From positions 1 through 40,406 of IMG/VR virus record IMGVR_UViG_3300030419_000962: 40,406 nucleotides of DNA; one strand, 5' to 3'. The translations under genes and the position numbers were made by a program. The notes under the pieces were generated by a model. It was not told the origin of the DNA and made no database searches. It saw only the letters and a program-made list of their open reading frames with translations. The stretch comes from a virus. Shown in pieces: positions 1,152 through 26,429 of this stretch; positions within the stretch are counted from its first letter, which is position 1; each line of letters starts with the position of its first letter.

Positions 1152-4100
1152 TTACTGGAAGTTTTGACCCGTAATGACTCCGAAGATACCCTGATTTCCT
1201 ACATCTGCACCATCAAAGAGTTTGAAGGAGTAAATATCCGTTCTTGATGCAGTAGTTGTGACTCCTGGAACAACACCACCTGGCCAATAAACTGGGAAAG
1301 CAGCATTATCACCATCATGGAAGGTATTAATTCCAACCCCATATCCACCAGTACTATTTTGAGTTAACTTCAAGGTAAAGGATGTTGCAGAAGTCTTATC
1401 GGCATTATAAAGTCTAAACCTAGTAATATCATCTGTTACTGTGCAAATAAAGGTATTTGCATCGTTAAGATAAATCTTAACCTGATTAGAAGCAACAGTA
1501 ACAATACCAACTTCTTCAGAAACGGACTTCAATCTCGTATGAGCAGTTACATCCAATTCTGCCCGTGGTGTAACAGTTCCTACTCCAACACCACTAGTAG
1601 TGGTCATTAGTATAGTTGAACTACTACCAACCTTAATATTAGTTGCAGTAAGAATACCAATACTTAAATTACCACTAGTAACCTCAATGTTTGCAGCAGT
1701 AATAATACCACTAACATTAACGTTCTTAGCATTAACATAATCAGCAAATCTTGCCTCTCCATTGACCCACAATGAAGTGGTTCCCATCCCCACATAACCA
1801 ATTTCTGCATAGTATCTTGGTGATGCAGTTCCTAATCCAACACTATCAAGGTCAGTATTATACAATCCACCCGTTATGTTAGTCCAACCAAAGAGTGAAG
1901 TAGTAAGACCTGTTAATCCAGATCCATCACCAACGAAAGCAGTTGCAGTAACAGTTCCTACAACATTAGTGCTTCCTTCAATATAAACTTTATAATTAGC
2001 AGCACTTGTTGTTGCAAGTCCAACATTTCCACTTGTATCTACAGACAATCCTGTAGATCCTGCACCTATTTGAAGAACATTAGAACCAGGATTAGTAGAT
2101 GCAATACCTACTTGATCAAAAGTGTAAATATCACCTTCTTTAGCCAAACTAATATTACCAAAACGTCTCCAATCATTTTCTAGAGTATAAACCCAACCAG
2201 CGTATCCACCTTCATCAGGGTTAGCAAAGTAATTAACATCTCCTGGGTTAGCAGCCAGAGTTGGAGTTCCTAAACCAACACTATATCTTCTTGAAACAGT
2301 TGCATCACCTTGAATGTATACATTTTGAGATTCAACACCCTTCGAGGAATTAATAGTTAATTTGTTATTAACAATAACTGGACCATTAAATTCAGATGAA
2401 ACTTTATTATCAGATCCACCATCAACTCTAATTGAACGATCAAATACACCCTCAGTAACTTGAGAAACATTTAATTCTGGAAGATTTCCAATATCTTCAC
2501 CGGTTACAGTTTGAATAGGAGTATCAATAATCTCCTCTTTTCCAGTAACTGTACTTACCTTCTTATTACCAGCATATGCAATACCTTTATCATTCATACC
2601 GGTGTAGAAGTTAACACCACCTTCTTGCTTAGTAGATTGTGCTAATCTTTCTTCTATTGGAGTAATATCACGATTCTGCTTATCTGGGAATGCAGTTGAG
2701 TAGTTACCTGGACCAAATCCAACATACTCAAATGTATGACCAGAAGCACGAATAATAGAATGCCTTCTAAGTTCAATAGGATCAACTTTAACTCTTCTAA
2801 TAACAGAATTAATATCATGACTATCTGCCTTAGATCCTAAAACACCACGGAATACACTTACCGATGTATCAGTAGATTCCACAGTAGTCTTCACTCTCAT
2901 CATTTCCTCATCAACCATGAGGTAATCACCAATGTTGACATCTAGATTTCCATTGGCTAAATCCTGAAGAGAAACTGTAGCAGTAGTAGAATTGTCTACT
3001 GCAGCGGATAATGTAGTAGTAATTCCAGCATAAGTGGGAACCATTCTACCGTTTAAGTTCTCATCTTCTGCAGTAATTACACCATCATTAGAAGCAAATC
3101 CTTCACGATATGCATACATCGTCCCTGCTTTGGTGGGATTAGTAGTTCCCGTTCCCATATTAACAGCAAACGAAGTCAAACTAATGTTCTTCGTAACTAC
3201 AAAACTACCATTATATTGAGCCTGTGCAGCACCAACAAACTGAACCTTAGTATTGACACCCAATCCATGGTTACTTGTGGTAGTTACAGTAGCAATACCA
3301 GAAGTAAAGTCATAATTCAAAGTGTCAATAGGAACAGATTCACCAGTTAGATAAAGATATGAATTCTCAGTTAGAGTTTGACCTACACCAAGATTACCAA
3401 CCGTGGAGAATCCAGAGATTGTAGAAGCAGAAGCAACCGTAATACTTGTAGCAGCACCAGTAGCAACATCAGTAATCCTATAAAGATCATTATATCCAGC
3501 ATAAGATTCTGAAGATACTCCAGAAATCCTAATTACATCTCCAACATTACTATAAATTTTCTCAACTTCAAGAACAGCATCAACATATGTTCCACTAGTA
3601 GTAACACCAACAACATTTAAAGTATTACCTATACCATAGGCACTACCACCATCCATTATCTTAACGGCAGTAATGGTTCCACTTCCATTAACAGTTAATT
3701 TAGCAGTTGCATTCTTACCAGTAACAGAGTTGCCAATAGAAACTAACTCTGCATTATAGATATCTCCTGCACTACCACCACCAAAACCAGCACCACCAGA
3801 AGAAATACCAACTTTAGTAATCCTATTCAGACCATGATCCAGAATAGTAGTGATTGTGTGAGCAGAACCAGTATGAGAAACAATATTTGTAATTCCAATA
3901 CCAATCTCAGCATCACTAATATACTTGTTTAATGTCTCTCTTGTAAGACTATTTTGAGGATTGTTGACTACAACTTGACCAATAGTTCCTGGTAAAGCAA
4001 AAGATTTTGTCTCTGCAGGGTCAGAAACTGGAGTGTCTCTATTTGTCTGAGGATAAAGATCTTTTACGGGTTGAGAGAACTTCTCATCTTTAAATGGAGT

Positions 4101-20502: not shown

Positions 20503-22470
20503 TTAACCACCCGCATATAAAGAATCTGTCGAACTGTGAAATCTAGATCCACCAGCAACTACTATAGGTACTAATGATTCTTTAGATTTAGGCTCCGGCA
20601 ATTCCCCACTTGCATCAAGTCCATCAGAATAACCAGCATTATAAGCCTCTTGACTTCCTTCTTCATCACCAACCATCTCATAAGAAGCATGTTTACTAAT
20701 ATCCGATGTCTTCTTAGATACTGCTTTAACATCTAAAGGCATAATCTTCTCACTACCAGCAGGAGAGGTTTCCTTAGATATTACAATATCATCTTTTTGT
20801 GAAGGATCCACGTCCACATCTGTTGTTGAAGTACTTTTATCTGTTGACGCGGGAACTTTATTAGGATCTTTTTCTTTCTTATCACCTCCAGTTAACATTT
20901 TAACTAACTCACCAAGATCAGGTAACTTTGATCCAATGGCATCTATCTTAGATCCCAATGCCATTGCTCCTGGGATCATACCTAGAACTGCTTTCTCTCC
21001 ACCCATCACAGTTTCGGGGAAAAGATCTCTTCCAAACAAATACGCATCTATAGCCATAGACGCAGGTGCTAAACCAGTAATATCTAATATACCCGATCCA
21101 AATTCCAACATTGCACCAAAACTATCTCCACTTGCCAGCCTATCATAGGCAAACAACATGTTAAAGATACCACCAATAATTGGTAAAGCTTTCGCACCAA
21201 ATTTACCTGCCAATTTAGGCGCATCACTTAAAGCATTCAATCCAATCTTCTTAAGAAGATCTCCTACACCTGGTATCTTTAATATATTTTTAAACAAATC
21301 ATCAGCAACTCTACCTAAAGGTCTAATTATAGGTTCTAACCATTTCTTAATAGGTGCAACAACCCCATTCAACAACGCATCTCTTGCTCCTTTCTTCATG
21401 GAATCAAGAGAATTCGTAACCTTCTTGGCAGCATTATCCCATTTAGATTTCAACCCCTTTCCTACATTCTTTACTTTCTTCCAACCCTCACCAGCCAATT
21501 GACCGGCTTGTGCTAATGTTTTATCTGCAAAATCACCCACTCCCGTGAGTGCCTTTTTAAACCAATTAGTTTTAACAGGTTGTGGTTTAACTTTTTTTGC
21601 TTGCTTCAGAGCGTCATTAGCACCAGCACCACCCTGTCTTGCCTTATTATATGCACGAATCTGATCATCATTTAAACCTTGCTTCTGCAATAAATTTTCA
21701 GTCTTAGTTTTAGGTCTGATAGATCCATCACTAGGATCAACTATATTTTTCTTTCTTACTTGTTTATATTTTCCATCAGGAGAAATCCCTTGTCCTGGTT
21801 TGGGTTTGGGTTTGCCTCTAACATCATCCCACAAATTATCACCTTTCATATTGGCAACTTCCATTGCCACAGCAGCAGCAGTCATTCCCAAGATCATGAC
21901 AGTATTCATGAACTTGTTTACAACAGATGTAAAATTATCAAACTTCTCAACACCTTCATCACCAAATATATCTCTTACCTTTTCCCTCGTCCAATCATGG
22001 ATTTTCATTCCCCACTCAAGGAAAGTAGCTAATCCATTTAAGATCTTACCCCCAAAATCAATAACAAAATCTGCAATAGCCGCTAATGGTTTAAGGAACT
22101 TGACTATTGTAGGTAAGAATTTAATTAATCTAAAAGCAATCCAACCAATAAGAATATCACCCAAGAATTTCTTAATTCCACTTAAGAAACTCATCTTAGG
22201 AATTAATTGTTTAGGAGTTTCTGGTTTATCTGGATCAATAGGACCTTCTACCTTATCTTCTTCTTTTGCACGGGCTTCTTTTTCTTTTGCTTTCTTTTCA
22301 TCATCTTGCTGCTTCTTTTTAGCAGCAAAAGATCCTTGCAATAATTTCTCAACTGTTATTATCTTTACACTAATAGTATAAAGAGGCTTAACCAATTCGG
22401 AAGAAGGTTGAGTTACTATATCTCCACCTTTCTTTCCTGCTGGTAAAAATTTTTGAGTATTAATTGCCAT
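20503..22470 (-). CDS. Tape-measure-type virion protein with hydrophobic helices, 655 aa
   Basis: Residues ~50-85 are a lysine/glutamate-rich coiled coil (KKKQQDDEKKAKEKEARAKE). Long amphipathic and hydrophobic helices follow: FLGDILIGWIAFRLIKFLPT near residue 105, MILGMTAAAVAMEV near 190, ALPIIGGIFNMLFAYDRL near 430. The C-terminus is low-complexity and acidic. Lysine-rich helical segments plus membrane-like helices are typical of tape measure or ejected tail-interior proteins. It is four bases downstream of the other candidate (22474-24246). One of the pair, or both together, probably replaces T4 gp29. I cannot tell which from sequence alone. Confidence 0.55.
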   Translation of the reverse strand: MAINTQKFLPAGKKGGDIVTQPSSELVKPLYTISVKIITVEKLLQGSFAAKKKQQDDEKKAKEKEARAKEEDKVEGPIDPDKPETPKQLIPKMSFLSGIKKFLGDILIGWIAFRLIKFLPTIVKFLKPLAAIADFVIDFGGKILNGLATFLEWGMKIHDWTREKVRDIFGDEGVEKFDNFTSVVNKFMNTVMILGMTAAAVAMEVANMKGDNLWDDVRGKPKPKPGQGISPDGKYKQVRKKNIVDPSDGSIRPKTKTENLLQKQGLNDDQIRAYNKARQGGAGANDALKQAKKVKPQPVKTNWFKKALTGVGDFADKTLAQAGQLAGEGWKKVKNVGKGLKSKWDNAAKKVTNSLDSMKKGARDALLNGVVAPIKKWLEPIIRPLGRVADDLFKNILKIPGVGDLLKKIGLNALSDAPKLAGKFGAKALPIIGGIFNMLFAYDRLASGDSFGAMLEFGSGILDITGLAPASMAIDAYLFGRDLFPETVMGGEKAVLGMIPGAMALGSKIDAIGSKLPDLGELVKMLTGGDKKEKDPNKVPASTDKSTSTTDVDVDPSQKDDIVISKETSPAGSEKIMPLDVKAVSKKTSDISKHASYEMVGDEEGSQEAYNAGYSDGLDASGELPEPKSKESLVPIVVAGGSRFHSSTDSLYAGG

Positions 22471-22473
22471 TTC

Positions 22474-24246
22474 TTATACCGATATTCCTAAGACGGCTAT
22501 CTTTTGAGGAGATCTCATAGCAGTTGGACTAAAGCTTGGAATTTCATTCTTTGCATTAGAAATATCTGGTTTTGCATCAGCTTTTTTAAGTTCTTTTTGA
22601 TATGCTTGTGTCGATTTCATCTGAACAGGAGGTGTAATCGAAGGAGATTTTTTAGACCTAGAAAATCTACCACCACCTCTAGTAGGTGTACTACGTTGTT
22701 CTCGAATAACCTTTTCTGCAGCAGATGCAGGTATAGAAGAAGGAGCAACCTTCTCAATATTGGTAGTTTCTTGACTCGTCTCAGATGGAATCTGTATTTT
22801 AGATAAGTCTAAGTCCTTTTTATCAGAATTTACCAATAAATCAATATATTTTTTATCAACTACACTTAAATTGGCAAAAACTTTAGGATTATTATTCGTA
22901 TATTTTATAAGTCCTCTTGTTGCCCTAGCATGTCTTCTCTTTGTGAAATCTACACCCTGCCCACTCTGTATTGCTTCATTTAATTCCTCAGTTCTGTGTT
23001 TATGTCTTATTATCATAGTTTGCAACTCTTGTTCAAAAGTATATGGAACCCCTTCAGCAATACCCGCTATTGCTGAAGGTTCGTTACCCTTGTCAGATAC
23101 TCTTCCACCAGTATTATATCCACCTCCAAGTGGTCTATTAGTTCCTCCACCAGCAGCATTCATTGCTTCCATGGTGCCTACACCAAATTTCTCAACAGCA
23201 CCAGTGGACATAACAAATTCACCAGCAGTTAATTTTGCAGGAACCCTATCTGTTCCAGAAGGTCCTGATACAAAACCACCTGTTTTCATCTCTTTAGTGT
23301 CTGGTTGTTTAGTATCTGGTTGTTTAGTATCTGGTTGTTTAGTATCTGGTTCTGGTTCACCACCATCCGTCATACGACCATGTAACTGGTAAGCACCAAC
23401 TGCAAGACCAGTTAGTTGCATTGCTCTCATTGCTTTCTTTCCACCCAACATCTTAAGAAGCTTACCACCTTTAAGCTTGGCTAAAGCAGCCACCAGTTGA
23501 GGAATTAATTGAGATACAATTTTCACAGTCCACACTCCCACTTTAATCATCATGCCAGCGATGAATTTAGTGAAAGAATTGCCAAAAAGTAAGTAAGCAG
23601 CTAACAATGTTGGCCAAGTATTCTTAAGGAATCCAAAAATTGCTTTTATCTTTCCTTGATTCTCCTTATCACCTAACCATTCAACAAGTTTAAAAAGAAT
23701 TCTTCCCAGAAGAACAGTGGATATAAAGTCCCACAACTTTTGCCAAGCACTCTTAAAAGGTTCAAGAACTTTCTTTGCCGTAGCAGTAATACCTCTTAAA
23801 ATTTTAAATTCTAACTTATCCTCCTTCTTCCTACGTCTATAAGTCTCCATTAAACGTTGAAGCCAATTCTTATGCTTCTCTTCTGCTTTGGCTTCATTTC
23901 TAAGAACTTGAAGTATATTATCTAATGCATTATTAATTGCTATAAGAGGATCATATGCGACCATCTTACCTGGATCAGATTTAACTATTCCCCCAAAAGA
24001 TCCTGGATTAGCAGTAGGAGTACCACGACTACCACCACTAGGTACAGTCTTCTTTCCTAAAAATTTATCTACAAATTTATTAAAATCTATCTTATCATTA
24101 CGTTTCTTAAAACCTTCTTTCCTTTCAGCAGCACTTAAAGGATGCCCGTCAATAGTTCCCTGAGTTGTAAGCTCCTGAACATGACGTTGGTAACTGTCCC
24201 CAAAGAAATTAGAAGCAAAATTTTTACCGGAGATCTTACTAGGCAT
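22474..24246 (-). CDS. Probable tail tape measure protein, 590 aa
   Basis: Hydrophobic helices occupy ~170-290 (FISTVLLGRILFKLVEWLGD, TWPTLLAAYLLFGNSFTKFI). Around residues 315-360 comes GGFVSGPSGTDRVPAKLTAG followed by EFVMSTGAVEKFG. The pattern GGxVxGPGxxDxVPAxLxxGEFV is very common near the C-terminus of phage tape measure proteins. Four PDTKQ-type repeats precede it. The ATG overlaps the stop of the 57-codon ORF, and that ORF follows gp26. The order chaperone, frameshifted chaperone extension, tape measure is the standard arrangement in long-tailed phages. It should set tail length and enter the cell at ejection. The 655-aa neighbour is the competing candidate. Confidence 0.6.
   Translation of the reverse strand: MPSKISGKNFASNFFGDSYQRHVQELTTQGTIDGHPLSAAERKEGFKKRNDKIDFNKFVDKFLGKKTVPSGGSRGTPTANPGSFGGIVKSDPGKMVAYDPLIAINNALDNILQVLRNEAKAEEKHKNWLQRLMETYRRRKKEDKLEFKILRGITATAKKVLEPFKSAWQKLWDFISTVLLGRILFKLVEWLGDKENQGKIKAIFGFLKNTWPTLLAAYLLFGNSFTKFIAGMMIKVGVWTVKIVSQLIPQLVAALAKLKGGKLLKMLGGKKAMRAMQLTGLAVGAYQLHGRMTDGGEPEPDTKQPDTKQPDTKQPDTKEMKTGGFVSGPSGTDRVPAKLTAGEFVMSTGAVEKFGVGTMEAMNAAGGGTNRPLGGGYNTGGRVSDKGNEPSAIAGIAEGVPYTFEQELQTMIIRHKHRTEELNEAIQSGQGVDFTKRRHARATRGLIKYTNNNPKVFANLSVVDKKYIDLLVNSDKKDLDLSKIQIPSETSQETTNIEKVAPSSIPASAAEKVIREQRSTPTRGGGRFSRSKKSPSITPPVQMKSTQAYQKELKKADAKPDISNAKNEIPSFSPTAMRSPQKIAVLGISV
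23294..23353 (-). repeat. Four tandem 15-bp repeats encoding PDTKQ
   Basis: Four consecutive 15-base units, differing only at one base in the first unit and at the end of the last, encode PDTKQ three times and then a fourth PDTK within the 590-aa protein. Such in-frame repeats can expand or contract by replication slippage. Confidence 0.9.
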
Positions 24247-24412
24247 TGCCTGATTGTTGTTTGCGTTTTAATTCTTCCTCTTCTAGGTGTTGTTGAAGAA
24301 GCCCCACATAGATGTCTCGTTCCCAAGGCATCATATTTTCAATCTCTGTTAAGCTATATTTATGATACTGCATCAAGGCGAAATTTAGTCTGAAGTAACT
24401 TTCCAGACTCAT
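24239..24412 (-). CDS. 57-residue tail assembly chaperone extension (expressed alone or as -1 frameshift fusion to gp26)
   Basis: The frame starts MSLESYFRLNFALMQYHKYS and ends EEEELKRKQQSGNA; it is helical and charged with a well-formed MPWERDIYVGLLQQHLEEEE segment. The ATG at 24412 has no evident ribosome-binding site. Upstream the frame stays open to the slippery heptamer at 24430-24436 in gp26, giving the linker RVALLH. A -1 slip there would make a 301-residue fusion. It overlaps the start of the tape measure candidate (ATGCCTAG). This parallels lambda gpG/gpGT and functionally T4 gp26/gp51. The gene has been recognised from its composition, frame and context, not from a database match. 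Confidence 0.75.
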   Translation of the reverse strand: MSLESYFRLNFALMQYHKYSLTEIENMMPWERDIYVGLLQQHLEEEELKRKQQSGNA

Positions 24413-24423
24413 ATGCAGTAGGG

Positions 24424-25143
24424 CTACGCGAAAAAACTTGCTAGACCCTCCAATACTACATCACTCTCAACCTTAGTCTTAGGATTAGTAACTTTAATAG
24501 TATGAGATAACTTAGGCATTGTCTCAAAGAAAGTTTCAATCTCCTTAAACTGAGTAGAATTCATTTGTTCTAAGAAATCCTTTATCTCTTTCTTAGTACA
24601 GTCAGCAGCTGCCCATACCTCATCTTCAGTATAAATCTTATCAATACAAGTTGCAATCAAATCAAATGATTGATCCATTGCATTACTCTCATTAAAATCA
24701 AAATTATTTTTAATGAATTGATCTAATGATGGATACTTCAATTCCATCATAATAGAATTATCCACTTTAATTTTAGTAGTATGATTATCGTCCTTTTGAA
24801 CTTCAATATCATCTAAGAAAATTGTTATAGGAACCTGAGTTTCATTATCATCAGGACAAGTAACATTAACTTCAAGTTCTTCTCCAACAGACTTACCCCT
24901 AATATTAAGAAAAAGAAATTCAATGTCAAAAGTAGGAAGTTGTTCTACTTTCACACCTTTTGTAAGAACACAACTTTTCAATACTGCTTTAATAGCATTA
25001 GTGATCTGTTTAGTATCCTCACTTTCCATAGCAATCACAAGAAGTTTTTCTTCTTTAACTAAGAAAGGTCTATATTTAATAGTCTCGCCAGTCGAGGGTA
25101 ACTCCAACTCGTAGGTCGGAGTCGCAATTTTTGGTAAAGGCAT
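24424..25143 (-). CDS. gp26: Baseplate hub assembly protein gp26, 239 aa
   Basis: The start MPLPKIATPTYELELPSTGE followed by TIKYRPFLVKEEKLLVIAME matches the T4 gp26 type: a conserved ELELPSTGxxxxYRPFLVKEEK opening. The remainder alternates beta segments (LEVNVTCPDDNETQVPITIF) and an acidic helical C-terminus ending VVLEGLASFFA. In T4 the protein acts in hub assembly; members with this fold are regarded as tail assembly chaperones. The penultimate codons form T TTT TTC just before GCG TAG, a canonical -1 frameshift site leading into the 57-codon ORF. A TATAAATA late promoter lies at 25171-25178. Confidence 0.85.
   Translation of the reverse strand: MPLPKIATPTYELELPSTGETIKYRPFLVKEEKLLVIAMESEDTKQITNAIKAVLKSCVLTKGVKVEQLPTFDIEFLFLNIRGKSVGEELEVNVTCPDDNETQVPITIFLDDIEVQKDDNHTTKIKVDNSIMMELKYPSLDQFIKNNFDFNESNAMDQSFDLIATCIDKIYTEDEVWAAADCTKKEIKDFLEQMNSTQFKEIETFFETMPKLSHTIKVTNPKTKVESDVVLEGLASFFA
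24430..24436 (-). promoter_or_regulatory. Programmed -1 ribosomal frameshift site T TTT TTC
   Basis: In the gp26 frame the minus strand reads AGT TTT TTC GCG TAG. The heptamer T-TTT-TTC has the X-XXY-YYZ form with the correct phase. After a -1 slip the ribosome reads CGC GTA GCC CTA CTG CAT ATG and continues through the 57-codon ORF. No downstream pseudoknot was established by eye. Confidence 0.75.
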
Positions 25144-25182: not shown

Positions 25183-25968
25183 TTATCGACGAAGAGCTTG
25201 TTGAACCAACCCACCAGCAACATCGCCCAGAAAATCATTCCCTGTTACCCTATCTACTACAGCATCAGCAAACCTACCAGCAAGACCAGATAATCCACCA
25301 GAATTAAAGAGAGATTGTTGAAAAGGATTAGTAGGAGGATATGCTGCCGTCTTATGCAAATTCTTCACCACATATCTTATATAAGTTAATGAAACTGTGC
25401 ATTTTAATAATGAAGAAGAATCATAAGACACAGGCATAGAATTTATTGACAAAGGATATGCTCTAACAAATTCATACTCTAATAGGTTTAAATGATCTTT
25501 CTCAAACTTCCTAACTATTAATCCAGAATTTGCTGAATAATCATCAGGATATCTCAACCTATAATCATAATTAGTTTGCATCAATTCATTATCACTAGCT
25601 CTTCTTTGTTGATTAGAATTCTCAGTATACCTACCATTAGTAATATAACCCATCCACTCTTCAAAGAATTTAATAGGTTGATATAATCCTGCATCTACAT
25701 AAAAAGTTAAATCAATTCTTTCATCAAATACTCGACGATGAACATGTCTTTCTGTAACACCTGTACGATCATTAAAAATTTCAAACGTTGCAAGATTAGA
25801 TCCAGGAAGCAATGCTTCTGAACACATTAGTTGAATCTTATCTTGCTTCCCCACACCCCTCCATCTACCAAGAGGTCCAATAATAGGTACCTCCACCTCA
25901 AAATGAGAAGTGGTTGCTGGCCTTAATAGATTGGCCTTAATGTCTGAAACTCTGGCTACCCTAGGCAT
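25183..25968 (-). CDS. Tail-tube-fold protein, probable gp54-type tube initiator, 261 aa
   Basis: The body has the tail-tube signature: an early SEALLPGSNLATFEIFNDR segment (edge strand plus loop), RRVFDERIDLTFYVDAG, then IKFFEEWMGYITNGRY, a tyrosine-rich YDYRLRYPDDY strand, and the terminal YEFVRAYPLSINSMPVSYDS strand leading to LKCTVSLTYIRYVV. This fold is shared by T4 gp19 (tube), gp54 (tube initiator) and gp48. With gp48 encoded just across the divergent promoter region, the best guess is gp54, although a gp19-like minor tube protein cannot be excluded. About 45 C-terminal residues (GGLSGLAGRFADAVVDRVTG) look like an added amphipathic tail. Confidence 0.6.
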   Translation of the reverse strand: MPRVARVSDIKANLLRPATTSHFEVEVPIIGPLGRWRGVGKQDKIQLMCSEALLPGSNLATFEIFNDRTGVTERHVHRRVFDERIDLTFYVDAGLYQPIKFFEEWMGYITNGRYTENSNQQRRASDNELMQTNYDYRLRYPDDYSANSGLIVRKFEKDHLNLLEYEFVRAYPLSINSMPVSYDSSSLLKCTVSLTYIRYVVKNLHKTAAYPPTNPFQQSLFNSGGLSGLAGRFADAVVDRVTGNDFLGDVAGGLVQQALRR

Positions 25969-26000: not shown

Positions 26001-26429
26001 ATGGCCGAAAGTAAGAAGAGTTTATACAGACCATCTTTTCCAAAGAAATATAAAGGTGATACAAGTAATATTATCTGTCGGAGTAGTTGGGAAAGAAAGT
26101 TCTGTCAATACTGTGATCTCAATGAAAGTATCTTAGAATGGGGGAGCGAAGAATTCTGGATCCCCTATCGTTCCCCTGTAGATAATAAAACTCATCGATA
26201 CTTTCCTGACTTCATTATTAAAGTAAAGGAAAGCACAGGTGAACTTAAAACATATGTGGTTGAAGTCAAACCCAGACGACAAACTAAACCACCTACAAAA
26301 AGATCTTCTCTTTATGAAGCAAAAACTTATGCAGTTAACCAAGCAAAATGGAAAGCAGCAAGAAACTGGTGTGCAGATAGAAGAATTGAATTTAAAATTA
26401 TAACTGAAAAAGAATTGGGTATTAGATAA
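26001..26429 (+). CDS. gp4: Head completion protein gp4, TnsA-like nuclease fold, 142 aa
   Basis: Residues 17-60 read KYKGDTSNIICRSSWERKFC, then LEWGSEEFWIPYRSPVDN and HRYFPDF, the highly conserved T4 gp4 sequence. The PD-(D/E)XK-type residues are visible: Glu31, Asp70 (YFPDF) and Glu88-x-Lys90 (VEVKP). In T4, gp4 (also called gp50) completes filled heads before tail joining. The length is close to T4 gp4. It opens a plus-strand unit, and its stop overlaps the next start (TAATG). Confidence 0.9.
   Translation: MAESKKSLYRPSFPKKYKGDTSNIICRSSWERKFCQYCDLNESILEWGSEEFWIPYRSPVDNKTHRYFPDFIIKVKESTGELKTYVVEVKPRRQTKPPTKRSSLYEAKTYAVNQAKWKAARNWCADRRIEFKIITEKELGIR

Follow-up and report, generated by a model that had tools for sequence, protein, structure and literature searches.

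Layout of the probable tail chaperone locus

The window, which is the whole stretch of 40,406 nucleotides analyzed here, sits within a 41,889-base IMG/VR virus record, and the contig is a fragment. The locus of interest lies on the minus strand and comprises the following features.

25183..25968, minus strand: tail tube protein gene, directly upstream of gp26 (PF23849, phrog_45)
24424..25143, minus strand: gp26 homologue of 239 amino acids, probable short tail assembly chaperone (TAC-N; PF12322 and phrog_150)
24446..24451, minus strand: Shine-Dalgarno-like GGAGGG, 9 nt 5' of the heptamer, probable frameshift stimulator (codon bias and predicted anti-SD duplex)
24430..24436, minus strand: slippery heptamer T_TTT_TTC, in phase with gp26 (from the sequence)
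24424..24426, minus strand: zero-frame stop TAG, one codon past the heptamer (from the sequence)
24239..24430, minus strand: -1-frame C-terminal domain (TAC-C, homologue of the gp51 C-terminal part), probably read as a gp26 fusion (phrog_634, nonsynonymous/synonymous ratio)
24387..24409, minus strand: 3' RNA hairpin, stem II, 8 bp in the window (fold, pair counts, covariation in the clade)
22474..24246, minus strand: 590-aa ORF, probable tape measure protein (weak phrog tape-measure matches)

The gp26 homologue matches Pfam PF12322 (E=1.4e-75, 254 bits for a cut-off of 24.5) and, in the phrog profile search, phrog_150. The gene upstream matches PF23849 Phage_TTP_2 (E=2.4e-15) and the tail tube family phrog_45. 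The matches of the 590-aa ORF to phrog tape measure families are weak (E about 2e-4); it contains a GGFVSGPSGTDRVPAKLTAGEFV stretch resembling a motif that many tape measure proteins share, and an ORF shortly downstream in phiM12 carries an annotation of similarity to tape measure proteins. The gene order is tail tube, gp26, -1 ORF and large ORF, the probable chaperone gene standing between the tail tube and the probable tape measure genes, an order in keeping with the chaperone reading. Two large minus-strand ORFs follow the chaperone locus in succession (22474-24246, then 20503-22470), and the second, of 655 aa, partly matches an endolysin family. On the plus strand, an ORF at 26001-26429 carries a TnsA-like endonuclease domain (PF08722), approximately where other cyanophages have the head completion gene gp4.

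The initial annotation had described T-TTT-TTC at 24430-24436 as a canonical heptamer in phase with gp26. This is confirmed, on the minus strand, which that annotation did not give. The 3' end of gp26 reads CTA GCA AGT TTT TTC GCG TAG, and a -1 slip would read CGC GTA GCC CTA CTG CAT ATG. As claimed, the sequence encodes a -1 fusion of 301 aa that bypasses the gp26 stop (ending in ...QQSGNA), and the 57-codon ORF (24412..24239, minus strand) overlaps the start of the 590-aa ORF (24246..22474), by 8 nt.

Conservation of the slippery heptamer and of the -1 frame

The larger ORFs of the window, 10,848 codons in all, contain 51 in-phase X_XXY_YYZ heptamers (about 0.5% of codons); among these, the T_TTT_TTC of gp26 is alone in standing just before a stop with a -1 frame that stays open for a long stretch (185 nt). 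The placement of this heptamer at the end of gp26 is not due to chance. In the first IMG/VR scan, T_TTT_TTC was in phase in 80 of 80 gp26 homologues. With further IMG/VR scans and GenBank phages, we obtained 331 unique junctions, 326 of which carry an in-phase poly-T heptamer T_TTT_TTN; these junction counts, like those below, are of sequences and not of independent events, so that nominal probabilities overstate the evidence. The motif ranges from relatives of the window to phiM12, KVP40, pf16, Cronobacter S13 and ACP17. In the 326-junction set (325 relatives plus the window), the frameshift arrangement is kept in 325, even where protein identity has fallen to about 25%. Phe-Phe is spelled TTT TTC at 284 of 326 sites, compared to 13 of 366 elsewhere in the same genes, where this is the rarest spelling. 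The spacing from the heptamer to the zero-frame stop is variable; the heptamer is constant.

The five junctions that lack the poly-T heptamer are those of T4, PG7, IME-SM1 and the two Ackermannviridae phiA8-29 and Kuja. In both Ackermannviridae, the PF12322 gene is followed by an open -1 frame (positions 3735-3950 of the phiA8-29 locus and 3735-3940 of the Kuja locus), and neither a canonical heptamer nor a phrog_634 match was found at these loci. IME-SM1 has five T at about position 3740 of its locus, against six in the near-identical Marzo, and its downstream ORF is not annotated. Because the run is one T short, gp26 appears extended in frame. We rejected IME-SM1 as a true in-frame extension given the T missing relative to Marzo, which reflects either a homopolymer error or a mutation. 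The sole exception to the -1 frame among the 326 junctions is S-SCSM1, in which an 11-nt insertion past the gp26 stop (2484-2520 of its locus) closes the -1 frame with both ORFs kept; it may be a real variant or a sequencing error.

All but one of the 326 junctions leave the -1 frame open past the stop. For the stretch from the stop to the ATG, the adjusted nonsynonymous/synonymous ratio comes to 0.07 when read in the -1 frame, as against 2.0 and 9.1 in the zero and +1 frames; by this measure, the -1 frame upstream of the ATG is under strong purifying selection. In tblastn comparisons with GenBank cyanophages, among the matches listed, the -1 match begins at the base where the gp26 match stops. 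The -1 ORF of the window itself matches phrog_634 (E=7.7e-28).

This ORF is annotated in many records as a separate small gene, gp51, which would be translated from its own ATG through re-initiation or coupling, without any frameshift. An ATG at 24412 does open the -1 ORF in the window, so the window alone is compatible with separate translation, and in S-SCSM1 the ORF persists in a frame that a -1 shift cannot reach. However, the first 14 codons of the -1 frame contain no ATG in 75 of 326 junctions and no ATG, GTG or TTG in 51, one of them being S-SCSM1 with its closed frame; in the start-less junctions displayed, S-SCSM1 apart, the peptide is conserved (for example RIALLHTNLQAYYEGNF). Conservation also reaches upstream of the ATG, the heptamer does not drift to synonymous spellings, the GGAGGG stands some 33 nt ahead of the window ATG, too distant to serve it, and the same domain is fused in T4 gp51. 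Taken together, these observations make a separately translated gene very improbable.

In records of Syn9, DSL-LC02, S-B64 and Melnitz-2, the annotated gp51 begins at an internal ATG and loses the conserved N-terminal part; in three further loci (L081, L172 and L173), gp51 is unannotated.

Every comparative test run (heptamer, frame, spacing and coding selection) supported a programmed -1 frameshift, as the initial annotation had proposed. The alignment of junctions that it suggested showed the slippery run and the relative -1 frame to be conserved (with one exception in 326) and the zero-frame spacing to vary; homologues without the slippery run or with the ORFs in other relative frames, which it had listed as contrary evidence, are not what the comparative tests brought out. 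With a probability of roughly 0.93, we propose that a programmed -1 frameshift on T_TTT_TTC makes the long tail assembly chaperone of this T4-like cyanophage-type myovirus, the short form being gp26.

Elements flanking the heptamer

The Glu codon of the Shine-Dalgarno-like element is GAG in 247 of 313 junctions, compared to 30% elsewhere, and elements with GAA more often have the rare GGG as partner. Pairing with the anti-SD sequence is predicted at -7.5 kcal/mol; synonymous versions would reach -6.0, and other in-frame segments of the gene -0.6. Judged by codon choice and predicted pairing, the element is conserved and under selection, and it probably stimulates slippage. In the -1 signal of E. 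coli dnaX, an SD-like element stands about 10 nt before the heptamer and a stem follows downstream. That system differs in that it yields a truncated protein from an A-rich heptamer, whereas the predicted product of the window phage is an extension.

On the 3' side, unusually low folding energy is confined to segments starting +0 to +12 from the heptamer (z about -2). Under a codon-preserving null, the mean z is -2.6 and that of the window -3.0, with controls at -0.5 and -0.8; the same test gave no signal of downstream structure in the Syn9-like and methylophage-like groups. Folding of the junction for a stimulatory structure, as the initial annotation had suggested, returned a hairpin at 24387..24409, stem II (-8.4 kcal/mol, z -2.4), which may stimulate slippage. 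In the window clade, 88% of the stem II cells are paired (17-61% when the stem is slid) with 45 both-side changes (0-10 slid). Stem I belongs to the P-SSM2 type, in which 94% of its cells are paired. The stems were chosen from the same sequences that were then counted, a choice that favours them in these pair counts and in the tree counts below. A further clade-specific hairpin is stem III, and S-N03-type phages have a strong stem of different sequence at a similar place.

Double changes that replace one Watson-Crick pair by another were counted on a tree: stem II has 23 (slid 0-9), stem III has 15 (slid 1-4), and stem I has 8, a figure that is not distinctive because the slid controls reach 1-6. 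RNAalifold gave no consensus structure for the window clade, although pair counting found stem II, and Rfam gave no match. A single universal hairpin for all clades was rejected, the stems standing in three different registers. As judged from folding and pair changes, the downstream hairpins are under selection, clade-specific and covarying.

What the hairpins do can be read in two ways. We lean slightly towards a two-part control, in which a fixed SD-like element 9 nt upstream acts with a downstream hairpin that has been rebuilt in position and sequence in each clade (stems I, II and III and the S-N03 type) and is absent from the Syn9-like and methylophage-like groups; the slip ratio would then be kept by replaceable RNA parts within coding sequence. 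The hairpins could instead hide the internal ATG, preventing production of the C-terminal domain alone, without stimulating slippage; the frameshift itself would be unaffected. Stems I and III do cover the ATG region and stem II begins right past the ATG, about 20 nt from the heptamer, which is farther than usual for a stimulator. Stem I, however, begins about 6 nt past the heptamer, the usual position of a stimulator, and the strong stem of S-N03-type phages stands at a similar place despite its different sequence. We consider such masking of the ATG unlikely, and we infer that the hairpins stimulate slippage.

The T run could also act on the RNA polymerase, which would add or drop a U and give the fusion from mixed messages. 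The run has six consecutive T, and some relatives have seven or eight. However, most junctions have exactly six T followed by C, which is short for polymerase slippage, and the phase of the heptamer, the SD-like element and the downstream hairpins, all specific to ribosomes, would be unneeded. We give transcriptional slippage hardly any credence, even less than separate translation of the -1 ORF.

Relation to T4 gp26 and gp51 and to known tail chaperones

Both gp26 and gp51 of T4 match PF12322. In addition, residues 147-246 of T4 gp51 match phrog_634 (E=1.2e-23), the same family as the -1 ORF of the window, and a similar match to the gp51 C-terminus is recorded in the KVP40 annotation. The link to gp26 and gp51 made in the initial annotation was right, with one refinement: the match of the 57-codon ORF is to the C-terminal part of gp51 alone, the N-terminal part of gp51 being a gp26 paralogue. 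For this reason, T4 gp51 corresponds to the whole fusion. A single PF12322 gene is present in the window contig, itself a fragment, and the 17 genomes compared from outside the T4 group also have one apiece. The number is two in T4 and PG7, the only genomes in this comparison with phrog_634 fused in frame. T4 gp26 is the short form and T4 gp51 the long one, with the same C-terminal domain in frame. Since T4 and PG7 carry short gp26 and long gp51 genes, the preferred reading is that gp26 of the window serves as the short chaperone and that the frameshift product would be its long counterpart. The simplest reading of these homologies is that short and long tail assembly chaperones come from two genes in T4 and from frameshifting here. 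The two-gene feature was found in the T4 group only; the window phage would rely on one gene and a -1 slip.

Structure prediction was run on the window and viral-contig loci. The AlphaFold2 model of gp26 alone reached a pLDDT of 87, and its comparison with the PDB ranked the HK97 tail assembly chaperone 2ob9 first (probability 0.89, E=0.57), in a match of 62 columns that spans only part of gp26. No other PDB entry gave a meaningful match, and this one is suggestive. A sequence search of the PDB returned nothing significant.

In lambda, the slippery heptamer is G_GGA_AAG. By arrangement, the locus is similar to lambda gpG/gpGT, both in lying between the tail tube gene and the probable tape measure gene and in the addition of a C-terminal domain; it differs in its heptamer, T_TTT_TTC, and in the SD-like element and hairpins seen here. 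According to the mechanism that we propose, most ribosomes would end gp26 at the TAG and give the short chaperone (TAC-N, similar to lambda gpG). A minority would slip by -1 on T_TTT_TTC, probably aided by the upstream GGAGGG and by downstream RNA structure, pass the stop and add a -1 domain of 63 codons, giving the 301-aa long chaperone (TAC-NC, similar to gpGT). If the parallel with lambda holds, the N domain may bind the tape measure protein of the next gene, and the extra domain may recruit tail tube subunits.

Frameshifting is reportedly conserved in several T4-like groups, with the T4 group using genes 26 and 51. A review (Atkins et al., 2016; PMC5009743) describes G/GT-type tail frameshifting as widely conserved among long-tailed phages, T4 being the exception. 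The remark of the initial annotation that T4-like phages are not usually described in this way is out of date, as tail assembly chaperones have been identified in T4-like phages (Vladimirov, Gautam and Davidson, 2022, Virology 566:9-15); the principle of frameshifted chaperones in these phages was thus already known. PRFect attributes to the same study the finding that some T4-like phages have a short gene and a fused long one, and PMC12846349 credits it with poly-T slip signals. The gene pair there is of the same short and long kind, and the text available on it does not mention an SD-like element or hairpins. We found no paper on the cyanophage case in the open-access library searched, and, as far as that library shows, the SD-like element and the clade-specific covarying hairpins are apparently new.

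Our results suggest that marine phages of the T4 superfamily use G/GT-type frameshifting, the T4 group differing by its two genes. The annotation of gp51 is corrected for several records of cyanophages and related phages that cut the gene short, omit it or label it a catalyst. The extent and the probable control signals of the chaperone frameshift in T4-like marine phages are given in unusual detail, and hundreds of natural junctions are available to study how slip signals evolve.
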